Positions 6,069 to 12,729 of a DNA stretch of 25,418 bases are shown one piece after another; within the stretch, counting starts at the first letter, position 1, and the number at the start of each line of letters is the position of its first letter. This stretch comes from a virus, in the IMG/VR virus record IMGVR_UViG_3300031565_004200, positions 1 to 25,418 of that record; one strand, given 5' to 3'. Position numbers and translations under genes: made by a program. The notes under the pieces are model-generated. The model ran no database searches and was not told where the DNA came from. It saw only the letters and a list, made by a program, of their open reading frames with translations.

Positions 6069-8111
6069 ATGGCAGCTCTAACTAAAGAGCAGATCAGCAG
6101 GCTTATTGAGCTGATTCGAGATCATACGAGTTGGTTAAGTTTTCGCTTGATGGGTTCGAGATACGTGGATCAGTTTGAGATTAATAGGTTGAAAGCCATG
6201 GGGACGCTCCCTATGGATGTACAGATAGACTCAATGGAGTACGCCTTTGTTCTCGGTAAGCTTGAGGCTGTGCTAAAAGAGGCTGAGTGGAAAAATTTGT
6301 CTTGGAATGAATTGGTATCCAAGACTGAGAGAGGGCTTACAGATATCCAAGAACTTCAAATAGAATCAGCTGCTCTATCAGCACAGGGAGTTTTTAGAGG
6401 TCTGGAGCAAGAGATACAGCAAGGTCTCTTCAGAAATATGGCAAATGCTGTTCAGACAGGAGTCAGTAATGCTACGGTAAGAGGTGTTATTGGGGATGAG
6501 ATTCAGACAGCTGTCGAGACTCGAAAGACCTACCTTAAAGTAGCTGAGGAGTTTGAGGAGAAGCTGAAAGAGCCTAAGAGGAATTGGGAGAGGGTAGCTA
6601 TAACTGAGATGCATAACGCACGACAGCAAGGTGTTGTCGCTGCTATTGTAAATAAAGAGGATGTGTACCGACATTCTGATGGTGAAGATAGTGATGTAAC
6701 TATTCAGCTTGATCCTAAAGCATGTGATGATTGTAATCGAATCTACATGGATAAGAAGACGGGCAATCCTAAGATTTTCAAACTATCCGAGCTATTGGCA
6801 AACGCGGGGACGAATTATATTCGCCCATGGCGTCTAAATGCTAGGCCAGTAGTCCCTCCCCTGCACCCAAACTCTATTGCTGGTTATGCAGTTGTTGAGG
6901 GTAATACTATTGCGGCAACTAAGATGTCATACACGGGGAAGATTAGGGAAATCGTAACAGCTCAAGGTCGAACGCTTCCCGTTACCCCAAATCACCCGAT
7001 AGCAACCAGCAGGGGATTTATTCCTGCTGGTCAGGTTCAAGAAGGAGATTATCTCCTGTCTTACAATGAGGGGATCGAACAGGCAAATGTATCTAGGTCC
7101 ACTTTTGTATCTGGATCCCCTGTCTTTCCTCCAGAGAATGGTCAGCACGGACCAACCAAGATCGAGGAGGTATTCCATACGCTGTCTCTCATGAATAAGC
7201 CCCTCTCCATAAGGAGGCTTGGCAGCGAGTTCCACGGCGATGCGGCGTATGGGGATGGCGACATCGAGATTGTATATGCCGACAGCAAATTGCGGGACAG
7301 CACTGAGACCACAGACGTTGATCAGATCCAGCGTCTCTTGCTCGAATCGGCCAAGTTTTCTTCCCTTGCCGTTCAGCATAAGCGCCTTGGCACATCGCTT
7401 TTTATGGGTGACGGAGTTGGTCTTTCCGAGACGATTTCCACTCATACTTCGGAGTCTAGCAAATCCTTCAGTCTCCCATCTGAGACGTTGTGCGTCGGAT
7501 CTACCTCGCACTTGGATACCCTGCTCCTTGAAATGGGCGGTCAGTTTACAACGCGAGATGCCAGTTTCTGCGGAAATCTTGTAGAGGGACTTCCCAGCTT
7601 GGTGTTGCAAGATCAAGTTGTCGAGATTAGGGATGTTGACTATTCTGGTCATGTGTATGATCTCCAAACAGTGAGTGGAGTCATTGTATCTGAAGGATTA
7701 ATAATAAGCAATTGTTTCTGCAGATTACGCTATGTGCCGCGAGGGTGGGGATGGAATAAGAAGAGGAGAATGACTGTTATGGATAAAGAAGAATATGAAA
7801 AGAGGCTCAAAAAGAGCGTAGAGATTTTGCGTAAATCAAATGAAGAATCCGAGGATCCTCCGGGTAGTCACTCTCTACTACATTCAAGTCTGTCCTCAGT
7901 ACAGATACCAACTAAAGAAGAGATCTATCAAATTCATGATAAGAATGAGGCTGACAAGCTAGTTGATAAGCTTCGAAACTTAGGAGAGCTTCACTCAGAC
8001 GATGCTGATGCGTATCACCACATTCAAGATTTGATTAATTTCGCGTTGGATCAGTCTTATGTACTTGATAATGGTGGTCTAGCGGAACCGGAGCCAGAAA
8101 ATGTCCAATAG
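6069..8111 (+). CDS. Mu gpF-like minor head protein, interrupted by an intein
   Basis: 680 residues, made of ~400 residues of head protein split by a 280-residue intein. The first extein has the family's helical core, with RVAITEMHNARQQGVVAAIV at about residue 177, then C219 and C222 (CDDC). It stops at LHPN268. The second extein resumes CFCRLRYVP from C549. Joined, they give HPNCFCRL, the Cys/His-rich signature ending the Mu gpF family (compare HPNCRC), so splicing would rebuild the zinc-binding motif. The ~100 residues after that are charged, with KKSVEILRK. Mu gpF-type proteins are minor head components encoded near the portal, as here. The gene starts directly after the preceding stop and overlaps the next gene by 11 bases. 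Splicing itself is inferred. Confidence 0.88.
   Translation: MAALTKEQISRLIELIRDHTSWLSFRLMGSRYVDQFEINRLKAMGTLPMDVQIDSMEYAFVLGKLEAVLKEAEWKNLSWNELVSKTERGLTDIQELQIESAALSAQGVFRGLEQEIQQGLFRNMANAVQTGVSNATVRGVIGDEIQTAVETRKTYLKVAEEFEEKLKEPKRNWERVAITEMHNARQQGVVAAIVNKEDVYRHSDGEDSDVTIQLDPKACDDCNRIYMDKKTGNPKIFKLSELLANAGTNYIRPWRLNARPVVPPLHPNSIAGYAVVEGNTIAATKMSYTGKIREIVTAQGRTLPVTPNHPIATSRGFIPAGQVQEGDYLLSYNEGIEQANVSRSTFVSGSPVFPPENGQHGPTKIEEVFHTLSLMNKPLSIRRLGSEFHGDAAYGDGDIEIVYADSKLRDSTETTDVDQIQRLLLESAKFSSLAVQHKRLGTSLFMGDGVGLSETISTHTSESSKSFSLPSETLCVGSTSHLDTLLLEMGGQFTTRDASFCGNLVEGLPSLVLQDQVVEIRDVDYSGHVYDLQTVSGVIVSEGLIISNCFCRLRYVPRGWGWNKKRRMTVMDKEEYEKRLKKSVEILRKSNEESEDPPGSHSLLHSSLSSVQIPTKEEIYQIHDKNEADKLVDKLRNLGELHSDDADAYHHIQDLINFALDQSYVLDNGGLAEPEPENVQ
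6927..7652 (-). CDS. Antisense HTH plus Vsr/EDxHD-like homing endonuclease within the intein
   Basis: 241 residues on the minus strand. Residues ~10-58 form a helix-turn-helix (AGKSLYKISAETGISRCKL, then KEQGIQVRGRSDAQ). Residues ~102-175 look like a Vsr/EDxHD-type nuclease core: E104/E106, PQFAVGIYNLD130VAI, IAVE141L, H154, and the YLLDLGWSVLTILW helix-strand typical of DUF559/Vsr proteins. The end has CYRVIWGNGK. The conserved G-G-x-W-H stretch expected after the Glu is replaced by AAKPPYG, so activity is uncertain. The frame begins at ATG 7652, preceded by GGAG nine bases away; an upstream TTG at 7667 is less likely. The gene spans nearly the whole intein and stays inside it. Recognised by eye from family pattern; a chance antisense frame is the alternative, but domain order argues against it. 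Confidence 0.72.
   Translation of the reverse strand: MTRIVNIPNLDNLILQHQAGKSLYKISAETGISRCKLTAHFKEQGIQVRGRSDAQRLRWETEGFARLRSMSGNRLGKTNSVTHKKRCAKALMLNGKGRKLGRFEQETLDLINVCGLSAVPQFAVGIYNLDVAIPIRRIAVELAAKPPYGEGLIHERQRMEYLLDLGWSVLTILWRKDRGSRYKSGPRYICLFDPLIVRQEIISFLNLTSRNKSPAGCYRVIWGNGKRSTLSCYDFPNLPRV
7662..7665 (-). promoter_or_regulatory. Ribosome site of the antisense endonuclease gene
   Basis: Minus-strand GGAG (CTCC on the + strand), nine bases before ATG 7652. It lies between the candidate antisense promoter and the start codon, and it decides for ATG 7652 over TTG 7667. Confidence 0.55.
7683..7711 (-). promoter_or_regulatory. Candidate promoter for the antisense endonuclease gene
   Basis: On the minus strand TTGCTT (7711-7706) and TACAAT (7688-7683) are separated by exactly 17 bases. 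The -10 matches TATAAT at five of six positions; the -35 matches TTGACA at three of six. Predicted transcription start is near 7676, giving a ~24-base leader that contains the GGAG site. The promoter lies within codons for the intein's C-terminal block and ends on the intein/extein junction, so the unit would be self-contained. Short promoter matches also occur by chance. Confidence 0.5.
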
Positions 8112-11100
8112 TAATATGCAAAAAGCACTGGACATCTTAAAGTCCATTAATAAAGTACAGGTAGAAAAGATTCCTGGTGGTGCTGCAGCAGGAAAGGAGT
8201 CGAAAGATTACGACTCTGATCAACTGAAGATTGGTACACAGCACGAACTTGAACATGGAAAAGACCAAAAACTGGCTCAAGAAATAGCCATGGATCACTT
8301 GGAAGATGATCCTAATTACTATCGAAAATTGGAGAAATTCGACAAAGCTCAACCAGGAGAAGAGTTAGACGAGTTTCGTGGAGGAGACCCAGAGATAGCT
8401 CAGGAGAAAAAAGAAGAGAAAAGAGAAGAGCAAGAGTTAGAGAAGGCCGGTGCTGGTGAGGAAGCTGGAGAGTTTAGAGGAGGAGACCCAGAGCTAGCTC
8501 AGCAGAAAAAAGAAGAGAAAAGAGAAGAAGCTGCTGGCGCTGGTGAGGTAGATGAACCAGCAGAGGAAATGGATCAGGATGAGGCAGACGAACTGATTGC
8601 AGAGGAGGCTGAAAAGGAGGAAGAGAAGTCGGTGAAGAAGGCTATGCCTCTAACGTCATCTCAGGTTTCTCCAGTAGATACTCTAGAAGATTATCGTCCG
8701 CGAGATATCAATGGTGACCCTCTGGATAAAAAACCAGAATATGCGATGCCCGATATCAAAATAAGCCCTACACGTAGAGGGGCTAATCAGTTTAGACCGT
8801 GGTCTGAGGTTACTGGAATCAAGATTCCTCTCACAGGCAACCCGTGGATTCATATGAAGCGATGGTTGATGCGTGGAGACGACAAGAGGGCTATTGAAGA
8901 GAATGATAAGTTGTCTCGTTGTATAGATGAGTCTTTTTACGAGTATCTGACTGACTTTGCAAAAGCAGGTGTGGAAAAGCTTCTAATACTGAATCATGGA
9001 CTTATGTTTGACCCCTATTGCTTCGGTACTTTGGTCAAAGCTGCGAAGTGGGAAGTTATTCCTGGTCATAAGTACATCTATCGTGAGTGGAAAGGGGATG
9101 CTTGGCGGTATACCTATACTGATGGGATTCACAATAATCACGGAATTCAGCATGCAGGTAATCAGCAGGGTCATACAGTAGAGGCGCATGATGATTGGCA
9201 CCAGCAAGACCCAGAGCACAAAGACCCGAAGGGTGGCTTCGAGCATGCTCAACAAAAAGTTATGGAGACAGGTGGGGTATTTCCTCTTACGATCAACAAT
9301 CCAGATACTCCCACAGGAGAACCTGTACCGGAGAAATTTCACCTAGTCGTTAGACCTGGAGGTCAAGCAAAACCGCTGGAACTACATCGAGACGAGGGAC
9401 AAGATCCTTCAAAATTGAAACCATCTAAGGCTGACAAACGGATGAGGAGCTTCGATGATCTGGAGCATCATTTTCGTAAGACTCAGCATGTCAGTACAGA
9501 GCTTGGACCGGATGGAACTCCGTATCTGCAGTGGTATATTGGAAAGCCTGGGAAGTCTAAAACAGGGAAAGAAACTACTGAAAATCGTCCATACGTGAGA
9601 TTCATTGAGTCTAGTCCTCATTACCAAGAGTATGGATTCCAAACCAGCAAGAGCGGAGCTGGCTGGTTTCGACCATTTCGCAGTATTGAGGGGATCAAGA
9701 ATCATCTGCAAAAAGTGGCTGAGCAGCATACTCAACTTAGTCAAGATAAAGTATCCACGAGGGATATTAAACCTGCTGAGAAGGGTAAGACTTGGGCAGA
9801 GACTATTGAGTCTGGGGCATTCTCAGGAGCTAAAAAGAAAGTAGATATTGCCTATAAGAATACAGAAGATCCCAAGAAAGGCGGTAAACGTCGAGGTGTG
9901 ATGCGAGTGGATTGGGAATCTGGTGCTGAGCAGCAACGAGTTACAGGAGGAATTAGGAGAGAATTCGAAGGCATGTCGGTAAAGATTGCGAATGATCTTG
10001 TACGAGAGGCTAACAAGAAGCGGATGGAACAGGGTAAGATGCCGATCACCGGCAAATCAAAAGGCCGTATGATTGGCAATTTGATCTCTACTCCTGCCGT
10101 TATTGCAGTGAATCGTGCTCTTGATGGGTACACCCCTGGTAAGGCTAAGTTTTCATCATATCTGTACAGCCATATGCAGGGAGAAATGCTCAATGAGATG
10201 AGAGCAGCGTCAGGTGGGGAAATCGAACGACATACGGCAGCTACTGATACTTCTGACCTATTTAATTCAGGTAAATCATCTGAAGGAAGCAGAGTACCTA
10301 AAGCACGCATGTCGGCGCACAATGCTGCGATTGATGCAAGTGATAAGACTCCGCAAATCGAACACGAAGATCTCCGAGAGTGGGCGAACAGAGCAGAAGA
10401 GCACATGTACAACCACTACATGGCAGCTTTGGAGAGCGACACAGAAGATGCTGCTGAGATCGATATTAAGATGGCGCAGGTTCAGGATGAACTTGAGGGA
10501 GCTGTCAAAAGTGGGGATTACACAAAGGTGTTGTCTCTTATAAATAACCACACAGATCCCAAACATGGAGGAATTCAAAACTTCTTGCCACCACTGGAGA
10601 TCAAAAATCGTGCAGAACTTCATAGTCAGATGGATGATGCAGTAAAGAGGGGAGAGGTTGAACAAGCCTTAAAGCAGGAGTATGGGGACGGCAGGCTTGG
10701 AGAGACCCTTTCCGATATTGATAACTCGATTCCTGAAGAGGAGCGAGATGAGGGAGTGTTCTTCAGCCCAAGTATGAAGAAGAGGATCAAGAATGAAGGA
10801 CTACAGACATTTAAAGATTTGGCTGTGTCTATTCAGAGAGATCCGTCTATTTCCCTGGGAGAGAAAGCAAAGTTCAACTCAATCGCAGAGTGGGTTAAGC
10901 GTGATTCGACTCTGTCAGCAAAACACGGTCCAGTACCTAGATCTGAGGAGTTGGAGAAAGCTCTCGATATATTGAAGGCCAATCTTCCAATACCTCCGCA
11001 GACTCTTGATCAAGACAGTGGTAAGAAGGACGAAGGAGTGAATCCACTTGGAAGAACCGAGCAAGAAGAACAACCAAATAATAGTCCTCCTGACGTGCAG

Positions 11101-12729
11101 TACATCGGGAAGAGAGGTGAGCCAGAGGCACCGCAGTTTCTGTATGAGACTTCAGGTGTTAAGAACATCGTGTACGGGACTAATGCCCCAAAGGACAGCA
11201 GGGATTATGACGAAGTATTGGGAGATCCTGTATTCGACCCGCACGAGCCACATCCCGAAACTCAACCGGAGTTTTTTGATGAGCAAGGACGAAAGTTGAG
11301 TGGTCCTGTTCCTGAAGATGTAGAAGTAGAGGACAATCCAGAATACGACGAGGATAGAACGAAAGGTAACTTTTGGGTCAAGAGGTATACCGATCCGCAG
11401 ACAGGAGAACCTGTTTACATTTATCTTCATCGTGATCAGATTTTAGATCCACGGTTGAAGAATAATATTGAGATCAAGTATCTCGATGAGCAACTGCCAA
11501 AAATACGAGCGTGGTATCAAGAGAAGATGATGTCCGCTGACCCACATGACCGTGCAGTAGCACTATTGACTGCGTTAGTTGATCAAGCAAAATTCAGGAT
11601 CAGAGAAGTCTTGCTGGGGTTGCGTGTCAAGGATGTAACGGTACATGATCACACTAAAATTACTGTAAGACTTCCTCATGGCGGTTCAACTGATGTCACA
11701 ATGGATAGAACTCCTATGAATGTTTTGAGAGAGATCATGAGTGGGAAGAAAGAAGATGATCTCATATTCGAAGTGAATGGAGATAAATTCGATTATGAGA
11801 CGTTTGCTAGGTTCATGAAGGATAACTTCGGAGTCCTGCCGTCATTCTTTCACACTTATCATGTGACGGAGTTGTTTTCAAAAGAATTTCATAAGTTAGT
11901 TCGTAAGGATACTGAAGAGCTGTCTTCAGATCGTATGGATGAGTTGAAGCAAGAGGCGCTAAAGAAGGTGGCAGATGTTCTGCATATCCATGATCCAGAA
12001 TTCCTTGAGTCGCATCTGGACCCAATTGCAATGGAAGCTCTATATTTGGCTGCTCATACGACTGACAAAAAGCATCTCAGTAAAGGGTCTTTTAAGCTTC
12101 AAGGAAGACTTTCATTCCAAGGATTGCCCGTTTCTATTGAGAATAAAAAAGGATCAGTAAGAAAGTGGTACGACCCTCACGGCGAGGAGAGTGGCCAGAC
12201 TAAGATGCATTTTGATTATGGATACATCAATGGAACCTGTGGTGTAGACGGTGATTATGTCGATGTGTACATTGGACCAAACAAGGAATCTAAAACAGTG
12301 TTTGTGGTCCATCAGATGAAGAAGCCAGATTTCAAAAAGTATGATGAAGATAAGGTCATGCTTGGGTTTGATTCAGCAAAAGAGGCCAAGTCAGCCTATC
12401 TAAAGCAGTACAATGATCCTGGATTCTTTGGTGCCCTGGACGAGATTCCAATGAACGCATTCAAAAAGAAGGTACTAGCTACAGCTGAACGACCTTGTAT
12501 GATAAAGTCGTGGCATGTCGCGGTAAACCCGCCTGACAGAGATCCTGATGAGACAATGTTCTCTCAATGGGTCCATTCCTATCCCATACACGAGCACTAT
12601 TTTCATTGGGATGCTTATCAAAAGAAAGCTGAGGATGCTCAGTTTGAAGACATCGCTAGGATTGGACTGATCGGCGGAACGAAGAAACCTCCCATGAGCG
12701 GGGAGTCTCATGCAGAGGTGTCCTTGTGA
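8101..12729 (+). CDS. Polyvalent multidomain protein: DUF5661-, sigma region 2-, topoisomerase IB- and pyrophosphatase-like
   Basis: 1542 residues. Domains in order: DUF5661-like segment, ~23-78 (IPGGAAAGKESKDYDSDQL, HELEHGKD, EIAMDHLEDDPNYYRKL); acidic repeats, ~86-145; unassigned region to ~600; sigma-70 region 2-like segment, ~640-702 (VNRALDGYTPGKAKFSSYLY, HMQGEMLNEMR); topoisomerase IB-like domain, ~1088-1320 (FWVKRYTDPQTGEPVYIYL, RIREVLLGLRVKDV, FFHTYHVTELF), with His1305 (ESHLDP) where the family has its Tyr nucleophile (SYxHP); and inorganic-pyrophosphatase-like domain, ~1336-1459 (SIENKKGSVRKW, HFDYGYINGT, DGDYVDVYIGP, DEDKVMLGF). Fusions of this kind are described as phage polyvalent proteins, thought to be packaged and delivered with the DNA; that role here is inference. 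It overlaps the minor head gene by 11 bases. The pyrophosphatase-like domain is the most secure assignment, the sigma-like the least. Confidence 0.8.
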   Translation: MSNSNMQKALDILKSINKVQVEKIPGGAAAGKESKDYDSDQLKIGTQHELEHGKDQKLAQEIAMDHLEDDPNYYRKLEKFDKAQPGEELDEFRGGDPEIAQEKKEEKREEQELEKAGAGEEAGEFRGGDPELAQQKKEEKREEAAGAGEVDEPAEEMDQDEADELIAEEAEKEEEKSVKKAMPLTSSQVSPVDTLEDYRPRDINGDPLDKKPEYAMPDIKISPTRRGANQFRPWSEVTGIKIPLTGNPWIHMKRWLMRGDDKRAIEENDKLSRCIDESFYEYLTDFAKAGVEKLLILNHGLMFDPYCFGTLVKAAKWEVIPGHKYIYREWKGDAWRYTYTDGIHNNHGIQHAGNQQGHTVEAHDDWHQQDPEHKDPKGGFEHAQQKVMETGGVFPLTINNPDTPTGEPVPEKFHLVVRPGGQAKPLELHRDEGQDPSKLKPSKADKRMRSFDDLEHHFRKTQHVSTELGPDGTPYLQWYIGKPGKSKTGKETTENRPYVRFIESSPHYQEYGFQTSKSGAGWFRPFRSIEGIKNHLQKVAEQHTQLSQDKVSTRDIKPAEKGKTWAETIESGAFSGAKKKVDIAYKNTEDPKKGGKRRGVMRVDWESGAEQQRVTGGIRREFEGMSVKIANDLVREANKKRMEQGKMPITGKSKGRMIGNLISTPAVIAVNRALDGYTPGKAKFSSYLYSHMQGEMLNEMRAASGGEIERHTAATDTSDLFNSGKSSEGSRVPKARMSAHNAAIDASDKTPQIEHEDLREWANRAEEHMYNHYMAALESDTEDAAEIDIKMAQVQDELEGAVKSGDYTKVLSLINNHTDPKHGGIQNFLPPLEIKNRAELHSQMDDAVKRGEVEQALKQEYGDGRLGETLSDIDNSIPEEERDEGVFFSPSMKKRIKNEGLQTFKDLAVSIQRDPSISLGEKAKFNSIAEWVKRDSTLSAKHGPVPRSEELEKALDILKANLPIPPQTLDQDSGKKDEGVNPLGRTEQEEQPNNSPPDVQYIGKRGEPEAPQFLYETSGVKNIVYGTNAPKDSRDYDEVLGDPVFDPHEPHPETQPEFFDEQGRKLSGPVPEDVEVEDNPEYDEDRTKGNFWVKRYTDPQTGEPVYIYLHRDQILDPRLKNNIEIKYLDEQLPKIRAWYQEKMMSADPHDRAVALLTALVDQAKFRIREVLLGLRVKDVTVHDHTKITVRLPHGGSTDVTMDRTPMNVLREIMSGKKEDDLIFEVNGDKFDYETFARFMKDNFGVLPSFFHTYHVTELFSKEFHKLVRKDTEELSSDRMDELKQEALKKVADVLHIHDPEFLESHLDPIAMEALYLAAHTTDKKHLSKGSFKLQGRLSFQGLPVSIENKKGSVRKWYDPHGEESGQTKMHFDYGYINGTCGVDGDYVDVYIGPNKESKTVFVVHQMKKPDFKKYDEDKVMLGFDSAKEAKSAYLKQYNDPGFFGALDEIPMNAFKKKVLATAERPCMIKSWHVAVNPPDRDPDETMFSQWVHSYPIHEHYFHWDAYQKKAEDAQFEDIARIGLIGGTKKPPMSGESHAEVSL
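8380..8528 (+). repeat. In-frame direct repeat, 99-base period
   Basis: Two near-identical ~50-base copies (8380-8429 and 8479-8528) starting GGAGGAGACCC encode EFRGGDPE[IL]AQ followed by KKEEKREE. They lie in the acidic linker of the polyvalent protein. The 99-base period keeps the frame, consistent with a recent internal duplication. Confidence 0.75.

Follow-up and report, generated by a model that had tools for sequence, protein, structure and literature searches.

A Vsr-like homing endonuclease gene is predicted on the complementary strand of a class 1 intein in a phage minor head gene

A minor head gene in the stretch of viral DNA analysed here (IMG/VR record IMGVR_UViG_3300031565_004200, 25,418 nucleotides; hereafter referred to as the window) is interrupted by an intein, and the complementary strand of this intein carries a gene for an HTH protein with a Vsr-like nuclease domain. 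We consider it highly probable that this is a mobile class 1 intein with a homing endonuclease gene on its complementary strand, one that would be expressed and whose product would cut DNA and home. The initial annotation had proposed that the mobility function lies on that strand, and this proposal is supported by the open frames of the relatives, by selection that switches strand along the intein, by the relationship of the antisense protein to nuclease and HTH families, and by a start site embedded in the intein.

The intein and its host gene

The host gene (6069–8111, plus strand) was assigned as a phage minor head (MuF-like) gene from weak matches to PHROG minor-head and head-morphogenesis families and from the context of its relatives; the hosts of the related inteins are mostly Pfam Phage_Mu_F proteins. 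The intein (6873–7712, plus strand) consists of 280 residues, from Ser1 to Asn280, and sits at the site PPLHPN/CFCRLR, where the slash denotes the junction. Intein_splicing (E 6.7e-6) is the sole Pfam match on it, in agreement with the initial annotation, in which the sense intein had no LAGLIDADG or HNH domain of its own. Its predicted fold resembles those of solved inteins, and the top fold matches of the sense model in the PDB are nearly all inteins.

Three regions can be distinguished in the sense product. The N-terminal splicing region (6873–7070, plus strand; block B, TPNHP) and the C-terminal one (7575–7712, plus strand; block F, GHVYDLQ, and block G, ISN/C) are both conserved on the sense strand and are modelled as a well-folded HINT half at either end, with pLDDT values mostly above 90 (91–98 at the termini; mostly 93–98 in the N-terminal region and 91–98 in the C-terminal region). 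The insert between them (7071–7574, plus strand) tolerates sense changes, contains no recognised domain in its sense reading, and is modelled mostly with low confidence and largely as unstructured chain, with the exception of sense residues about 95–140.

Blocks B, F and G are conserved among the related inteins. The nucleophile at intein position 1 is Ser in the window and Cys in 77 of 79 non-redundant relatives; Ser1 is rare in the family and was seen only in the window (6873) and at one other locus (L048). Block B of the window contains TPNH in accordance with the TxxH pattern, T38 and H41 being invariant in 45 inteins. N280 is also invariant, and the +1 residue is Cys in the window and mostly Cys in the relatives. 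By these sequence features and the predicted fold, the sense product is a canonical class 1 intein, for which splicing is predicted.

Two further observations concern the annotation of this region. The profile phrog_15127 ('head protein') matches the window protein mainly inside the intein (residues 283–469), so a head annotation based on this profile can be misled by an intein. Directly after the head gene, the window encodes a virion-type protein of 1542 residues (8101–12729, plus strand) with a DUF5661 domain, a topoisomerase IB-like catalytic core and an inorganic-pyrophosphatase domain.

The antisense frame

The antisense gene (6927–7652, minus strand) comprises 241 codons from an ATG at 7652 to a stop at 6927, as first described, and lies wholly within the intein without including any extein sequence. 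The two frames share their codon boundaries exactly: positions 1, 2 and 3 of an antisense codon are opposite positions 3, 2 and 1 of a sense codon, so that the antisense codons are, one by one, reverse complements of sense codons. In this phase, an antisense stop arises only from TTA, CTA or TCA in the sense frame. These codons account for 3.05% of the codons in the other genes of the window, and within the intein they are confined to its two ends (6927 and 7698). With the codon use of the window itself, a run of 241 codons free of them has a probability of 5.8e-4, and the next longest such run among the window genes is 137 codons. A chance open frame is therefore unlikely in the window and is ruled out by the family. 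Taken alone, this probability would be modest evidence; the selection test on the relatives is decisive.

At all 104 related loci examined, both the antisense frame and the sense frame in register with it are open, and the remaining two minus-strand frames contain stops in nearly all of them. Antisense frames broken by stops at random, which had been named as one of two outcomes that would speak against the proposal, were thus not found at any of these loci. The 104 loci were gathered with antisense queries, which favours intact antisense frames, and the selection test described below is independent of such bias. The frames are open in genomes of 38–47% GC as well.

The antisense protein is related to Vsr-like nucleases

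The antisense protein is composed of an HTH of the resolvase or homeodomain-like type (residues 10–43; 7524–7625, minus strand), which is doubled in several relatives, and a nuclease domain with the Vsr/I-Bth0305I fold (residues 102–173; 7134–7349, minus strand), which was assigned from both family matches and the predicted fold. Among 50 antisense proteins, 42 matched the Pfam family REase_MTES_1575 (best E 8.7e-10), and many matched resolvase- or homeodomain-type HTH families, in agreement with the domains first suggested; the other outcome that would have spoken against the proposal, a lack of any nuclease or HTH match, was thus not observed either. The window protein alone gives E 0.0027 against REase_MTES_1575 (PF18741), at 18.2 bits as against the curated cut-off of 38.2 bits. 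Similarly, a phmmer search of the PDB with the single protein (P0001) returned no match, and the family profile alone succeeded, finding 3hrl (E 4e-6) and the HTH protein 2lvs.

The structure predicted with AlphaFold2 from a 50-row alignment has a mean pLDDT of 89.6 and is confident throughout the nuclease domain. It shows the alpha-beta catalytic fold of the Vsr/I-Bth0305I superfamily: among solved structures, it is closest in fold to the catalytic domain of the homing endonuclease I-Bth0305I (3r3p), E. coli Vsr (1cw0 and 1vsr) and 3hrl, each with a Foldseek probability of 1.00 and E-values from 2e-3 to 2e-2. The window protein has an insertion at residues about 175–190 that is absent from most relatives.

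The acidic residues expected of this superfamily are found at E104 (7341–7343), D130 (7263–7265) and E141 (7230–7232) across the 50 proteins, accompanied by R158 (7179–7181; all minus strand). In this diverse set, N128 and D130 never vary, and four further positions (E104, Y127, E141 and R158) keep the same residue in at least 90% of the members. All the residues pointed out in the initial annotation (E104, E106, D130, E141 and the LLDLGW motif) are present, but E106 is not conserved in the family. Its label 'EDxHD-type' was right as to the fold and needs correction as to the motif. The strict EDxHD motif has a His-Asp pair following the second acidic residue. The alignment of the antisense proteins contains no conserved His, and Arg158 is conserved instead; the family motif is E-(YN)xD-E-R, from which the conserved His-Asp pair is absent.

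Selection switches strand within the intein

For 15 close pairs of relatives, single-base codon differences were classified by whether they alter the product of the sense strand, of the antisense strand, of both or of neither, and were corrected for opportunity. Within the core, differences that are silent in the antisense protein and change the sense protein occurred at 4.2 times the rate of the reverse kind, silent in sense and changing in antisense (235 versus 57 counts). The same ratio was 0.34 in the C-terminal and 0.38 in the N-terminal splicing region, and 0.22 in the N-extein. The core ratio exceeded 1 in all 11 informative pairs, while the splicing-region ratio was below 1 in 13 of 14; the bootstrap intervals of the raw ratios were 3.1–5.5 for the core and 0.17–0.55 for the splicing regions. 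Along the antisense gene, the ratio was 5.8–11.7 over the HTH and the linker, 2.3–3.5 over the nuclease, and 0.40 and 0.15 from block B on. Selection therefore changes strand within the intein: the antisense protein is conserved over the nuclease, whereas the sense protein is conserved over the splicing blocks and the N-extein. The window copy, for which no close relative was found, could be tested by deep comparison only, with a smaller margin: its antisense identity exceeded its sense identity for 20 of 20 relatives (means 0.37 and 0.32).

Two parts of the antisense gene call for separate comment. One is its C-terminal tail (6930–7052, minus strand). The last 40 or so antisense residues (about 200–241) face splicing block B and are kept by selection on the sense strand; hence, the part that functions as an enzyme probably extends only to about residue 200. 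Another is the nuclease region, where the lower ratio leaves room for some sense selection too. It is possible, though somewhat doubtful, that true dual coding exists here, with the antisense nuclease and the structured sense subdomain (residues about 95–140, FHGD...IEIV) both under selection in exact register. If so, one DNA stretch would specify two folded proteins, one per strand, as in the Rodin-Ohno idea for the early aminoacyl-tRNA synthetases.

A start site within the splicing blocks

The predicted translation start of the antisense gene coincides with block F. Its ATG (7650–7652, minus strand) is the reverse complement of the CAT codon for the block F His, and a Shine-Dalgarno sequence, GGAG (7662–7665, minus strand), is formed 9 bases before it from the codons for the block F Leu and Gln. 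Among non-redundant loci, the His codon is CAT, giving ATG, in 62 of 68, whereas 28.2 would be expected from these genes (z 8.8). For the Leu, CTC is used at 62 of 74 loci, as compared with 20.4 expected (z 11.3). CTC with a following codon that starts with C gives GGAG about nine bases upstream of the ATG, and CAA is also commoner than expected for the Gln (z 3.5). None of these choices alters the intein protein, and they can be understood only as serving the other strand.

The evidence for a promoter is weaker than that for the start site. A putative one, TTGCTT-17-TACAAT (7683–7711, minus strand), lies within block G and ends 30 bases before the ATG. Promoter-like pairs in block G are enriched in the family relative to synonymous reshufflings (mean z 1.53, standard error 0.15, 59 loci), a value obtained with an approximate matrix and from related loci that are not independent. 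A strict promoter scan reported no site at this position.

Relatives of the antisense gene

A tblastn search with the antisense protein matched 109 phage records, 100 of which covered at least 80% of its length; they include phages of Salmonella, Pseudomonas, Gordonia, Escherichia, Vibrio, Cronobacter, Idiomarinaceae and others. In the annotated records that were opened, the match runs antisense within a gene for a head or minor capsid protein, and the annotation does not identify the enzyme; Snoke and fEg-Eco06 are annotated as bearing inteins, with the antisense enzyme left unannotated. A tblastn search with the core alone again found mainly head-protein genes in phages. Aligned queries against IMG/VR found at least 555 related stretches; scans with a single protein (P0001 or L054) found no further relatives, since their six short exact peptides were too strict. 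One prophage-like locus (L037) was found in the genome collection, and a DNA-level search with the window gene revealed no near relative.

Among the proteins that host the inteins are MuF proteins, one RecA-like protein and one dCMP deaminase. The last is found in Rctr197k (KX853510; L014, 616–1968), where a gene annotated as 'putative head morphogenesis protein' actually encodes a dCMP/cytidine deaminase with an intein and an antisense gene; this phage is exceptional in its host gene, not in the arrangement. A RecA-like ATPase gene (L088, 2–1660) contains an intein of the family, and one intein-bearing minor head gene (L105, 1156–5016) additionally encodes a C-terminal ADP-ribosyltransferase domain. 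A free-standing relative annotated as a homing endonuclease was found with a weak match only (Rhizobium phage RHph_TM39, E 0.01). That phage has two free-standing endonucleases amid tRNA genes (L013, 2713–3255 and 911–1549), of which the first is the weak relative of the antisense enzyme.

Mobility of the intein

The head gene of Salmonella phage vB_StyS-sam, intein included, matched 349 phage records, of which 58 covered at least 80% of it. Most of the other matches listed covered 53–58% in two pieces, that is, the 816-base intein is missing from them, and phage S106 has the exact empty site PPAHPN/CRS. Between coliphage Snoke and vB_StyS-sam, the inteins are 95.7% identical, while the exteins are 66.9% and 79.5% identical; the intein has thus moved between these phages. 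Presence/absence polymorphism and horizontal transfer, by which a homing endonuclease is recognised, were therefore found in the Salmonella and E. coli relatives, not in the window's own phage. The insertion sites vary even in one gene, as seen between fEg-Eco06 and Snoke. In Kagunavirus-type phages (L009; L008/L016), different family members occupy two sites of the same head gene, SRTSTT/C and PPAHPN/C. From the presence/absence variation and the horizontal transfer seen in these sequences, we infer that the antisense gene mobilises the intein.

Homing endonucleases usually decay after fixation; this, together with the window copy having no close relative and carrying an insertion rare among the relatives, fits a history in which the antisense enzyme once spread the intein and is now inactive in the window's phage. 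However, the window copy has kept an intact frame together with E104, D130, E141 and R158, all conserved in the family, and its nuclease domain is modelled with confidence over its full length; we regard such a loss of activity as unlikely.

There is little probability that the antisense protein is a real nuclease with a role other than homing, such as a repair, packaging or competitor-exclusion enzyme that happens to reside in an intein. Vsr, among the best fold matches, is itself a repair enzyme, and homing-type nucleases can also act on co-infecting phages (PMC7468147). Nevertheless, in the loci seen, the gene always lies within an intein, and this holds for several insertion sites and for host genes of different kinds; it moves with the intein between phages; and it is missing from most related phages, as would be the case for a selfish element.

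Finally, the view that the antisense frame is a by-product, merely following a conserved sense intein with an unknown inserted domain, can be rejected with near certainty: antisense frames in this phase do mirror sense conservation, as the last 40 antisense residues illustrate, and long open mirror frames are common in GC-rich phages (1196 codons in L001), but substitutions in the core spare the antisense and not the sense protein in every informative pair, the antisense reading has matches in independent families of HTH proteins and nucleases, the synonymous codons of block F are picked for the antisense ATG and ribosome site, and the frames are open at 38–47% GC too.

Discussion

A mobile intein with its endonuclease gene on the complementary strand would work as follows. 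Read forward, the DNA would give an intein that splices out of the minor head protein and whose middle portion is little more than a linker. Read backward from the ribosome site and start codon in block F, it would give the HTH and the Vsr-like nuclease, with antisense transcription probably starting from the putative promoter in block G. If the element homes in the usual way, the nuclease would cleave head genes that lack the intein, close to the insertion site; the break would then be repaired with the intein-bearing copy as template, so that the intein and the endonuclease gene are acquired in one step.

Inteins usually carry a LAGLIDADG or HNH homing endonuclease domain in frame, or none. 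The present intein resembles the in-frame types in being a self-splicing insert in a conserved gene with a mobility nuclease of its own, and differs from them in that the nuclease is encoded by a separate gene on the opposite strand, on the same codons as the insert of the intein. With the I-Bth0305I-type Vsr-like homing endonucleases, the antisense enzyme shares the catalytic fold, the added DNA-binding module and, as predicted, the role of a phage homing enzyme; it differs from the Vsr-like (EDxHD) homing endonucleases in that the conserved His-Asp pair is missing. Such Vsr-like (EDxHD) genes were reportedly described by Dassa et al. in 2009 between the halves of split inteins, whereas the gene here lies within an intact, contiguous intein and does not separate two halves.

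Antisense homing endonuclease genes are known from nuclear group I introns, e.g., Didymium L2066 with I-DsqI (PMC9548176). There too, the endonuclease gene is antisense to a self-splicing element and to the host gene, and an internal promoter has been proposed. However, that element is RNA, with the gene in a peripheral loop and no protein on the other strand, and its enzymes are of the His-Cys type in eukaryotic rDNA (PMC9548176), while here a stretch of about 240 codons encodes protein on either strand. Another comparable case is the hidden HNH endonuclease of the ShiLan domain in phage methylases (PMC11855218), a homing nuclease in another frame of an insert that is open in the host frame. 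That nuclease is on the same strand, is read out of frame from the host transcript, and has no splicing domain and no ribosome site that could be found (PMC11855218); the gene described here lies on the opposite strand of a true intein, encodes a Vsr-like enzyme and has a conserved ribosome site, and it is therefore not of the ShiLan type. In the full-text literature searched, which consisted mostly of papers outside subscription and included PMC8425127 and PMC11162368 on these phages, we found no account of an intein whose complementary strand encodes an endonuclease. The arrangement appears to be undescribed so far, and an earlier report is possible.

The complementary strand would represent a third way of pairing an intein with an endonuclease, being neither in-frame fusion nor absence, and it would separate the control of the nuclease from that of the late-expressed structural gene. 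We suggest that many 'endonuclease-free' inteins are worth rechecking on the other strand. Furthermore, the family is a large, natural and replicated case of in-register sense/antisense protein coding, with hundreds of examples in which selection is measurable on each strand, and it thus provides data on how two proteins share one series of codons.
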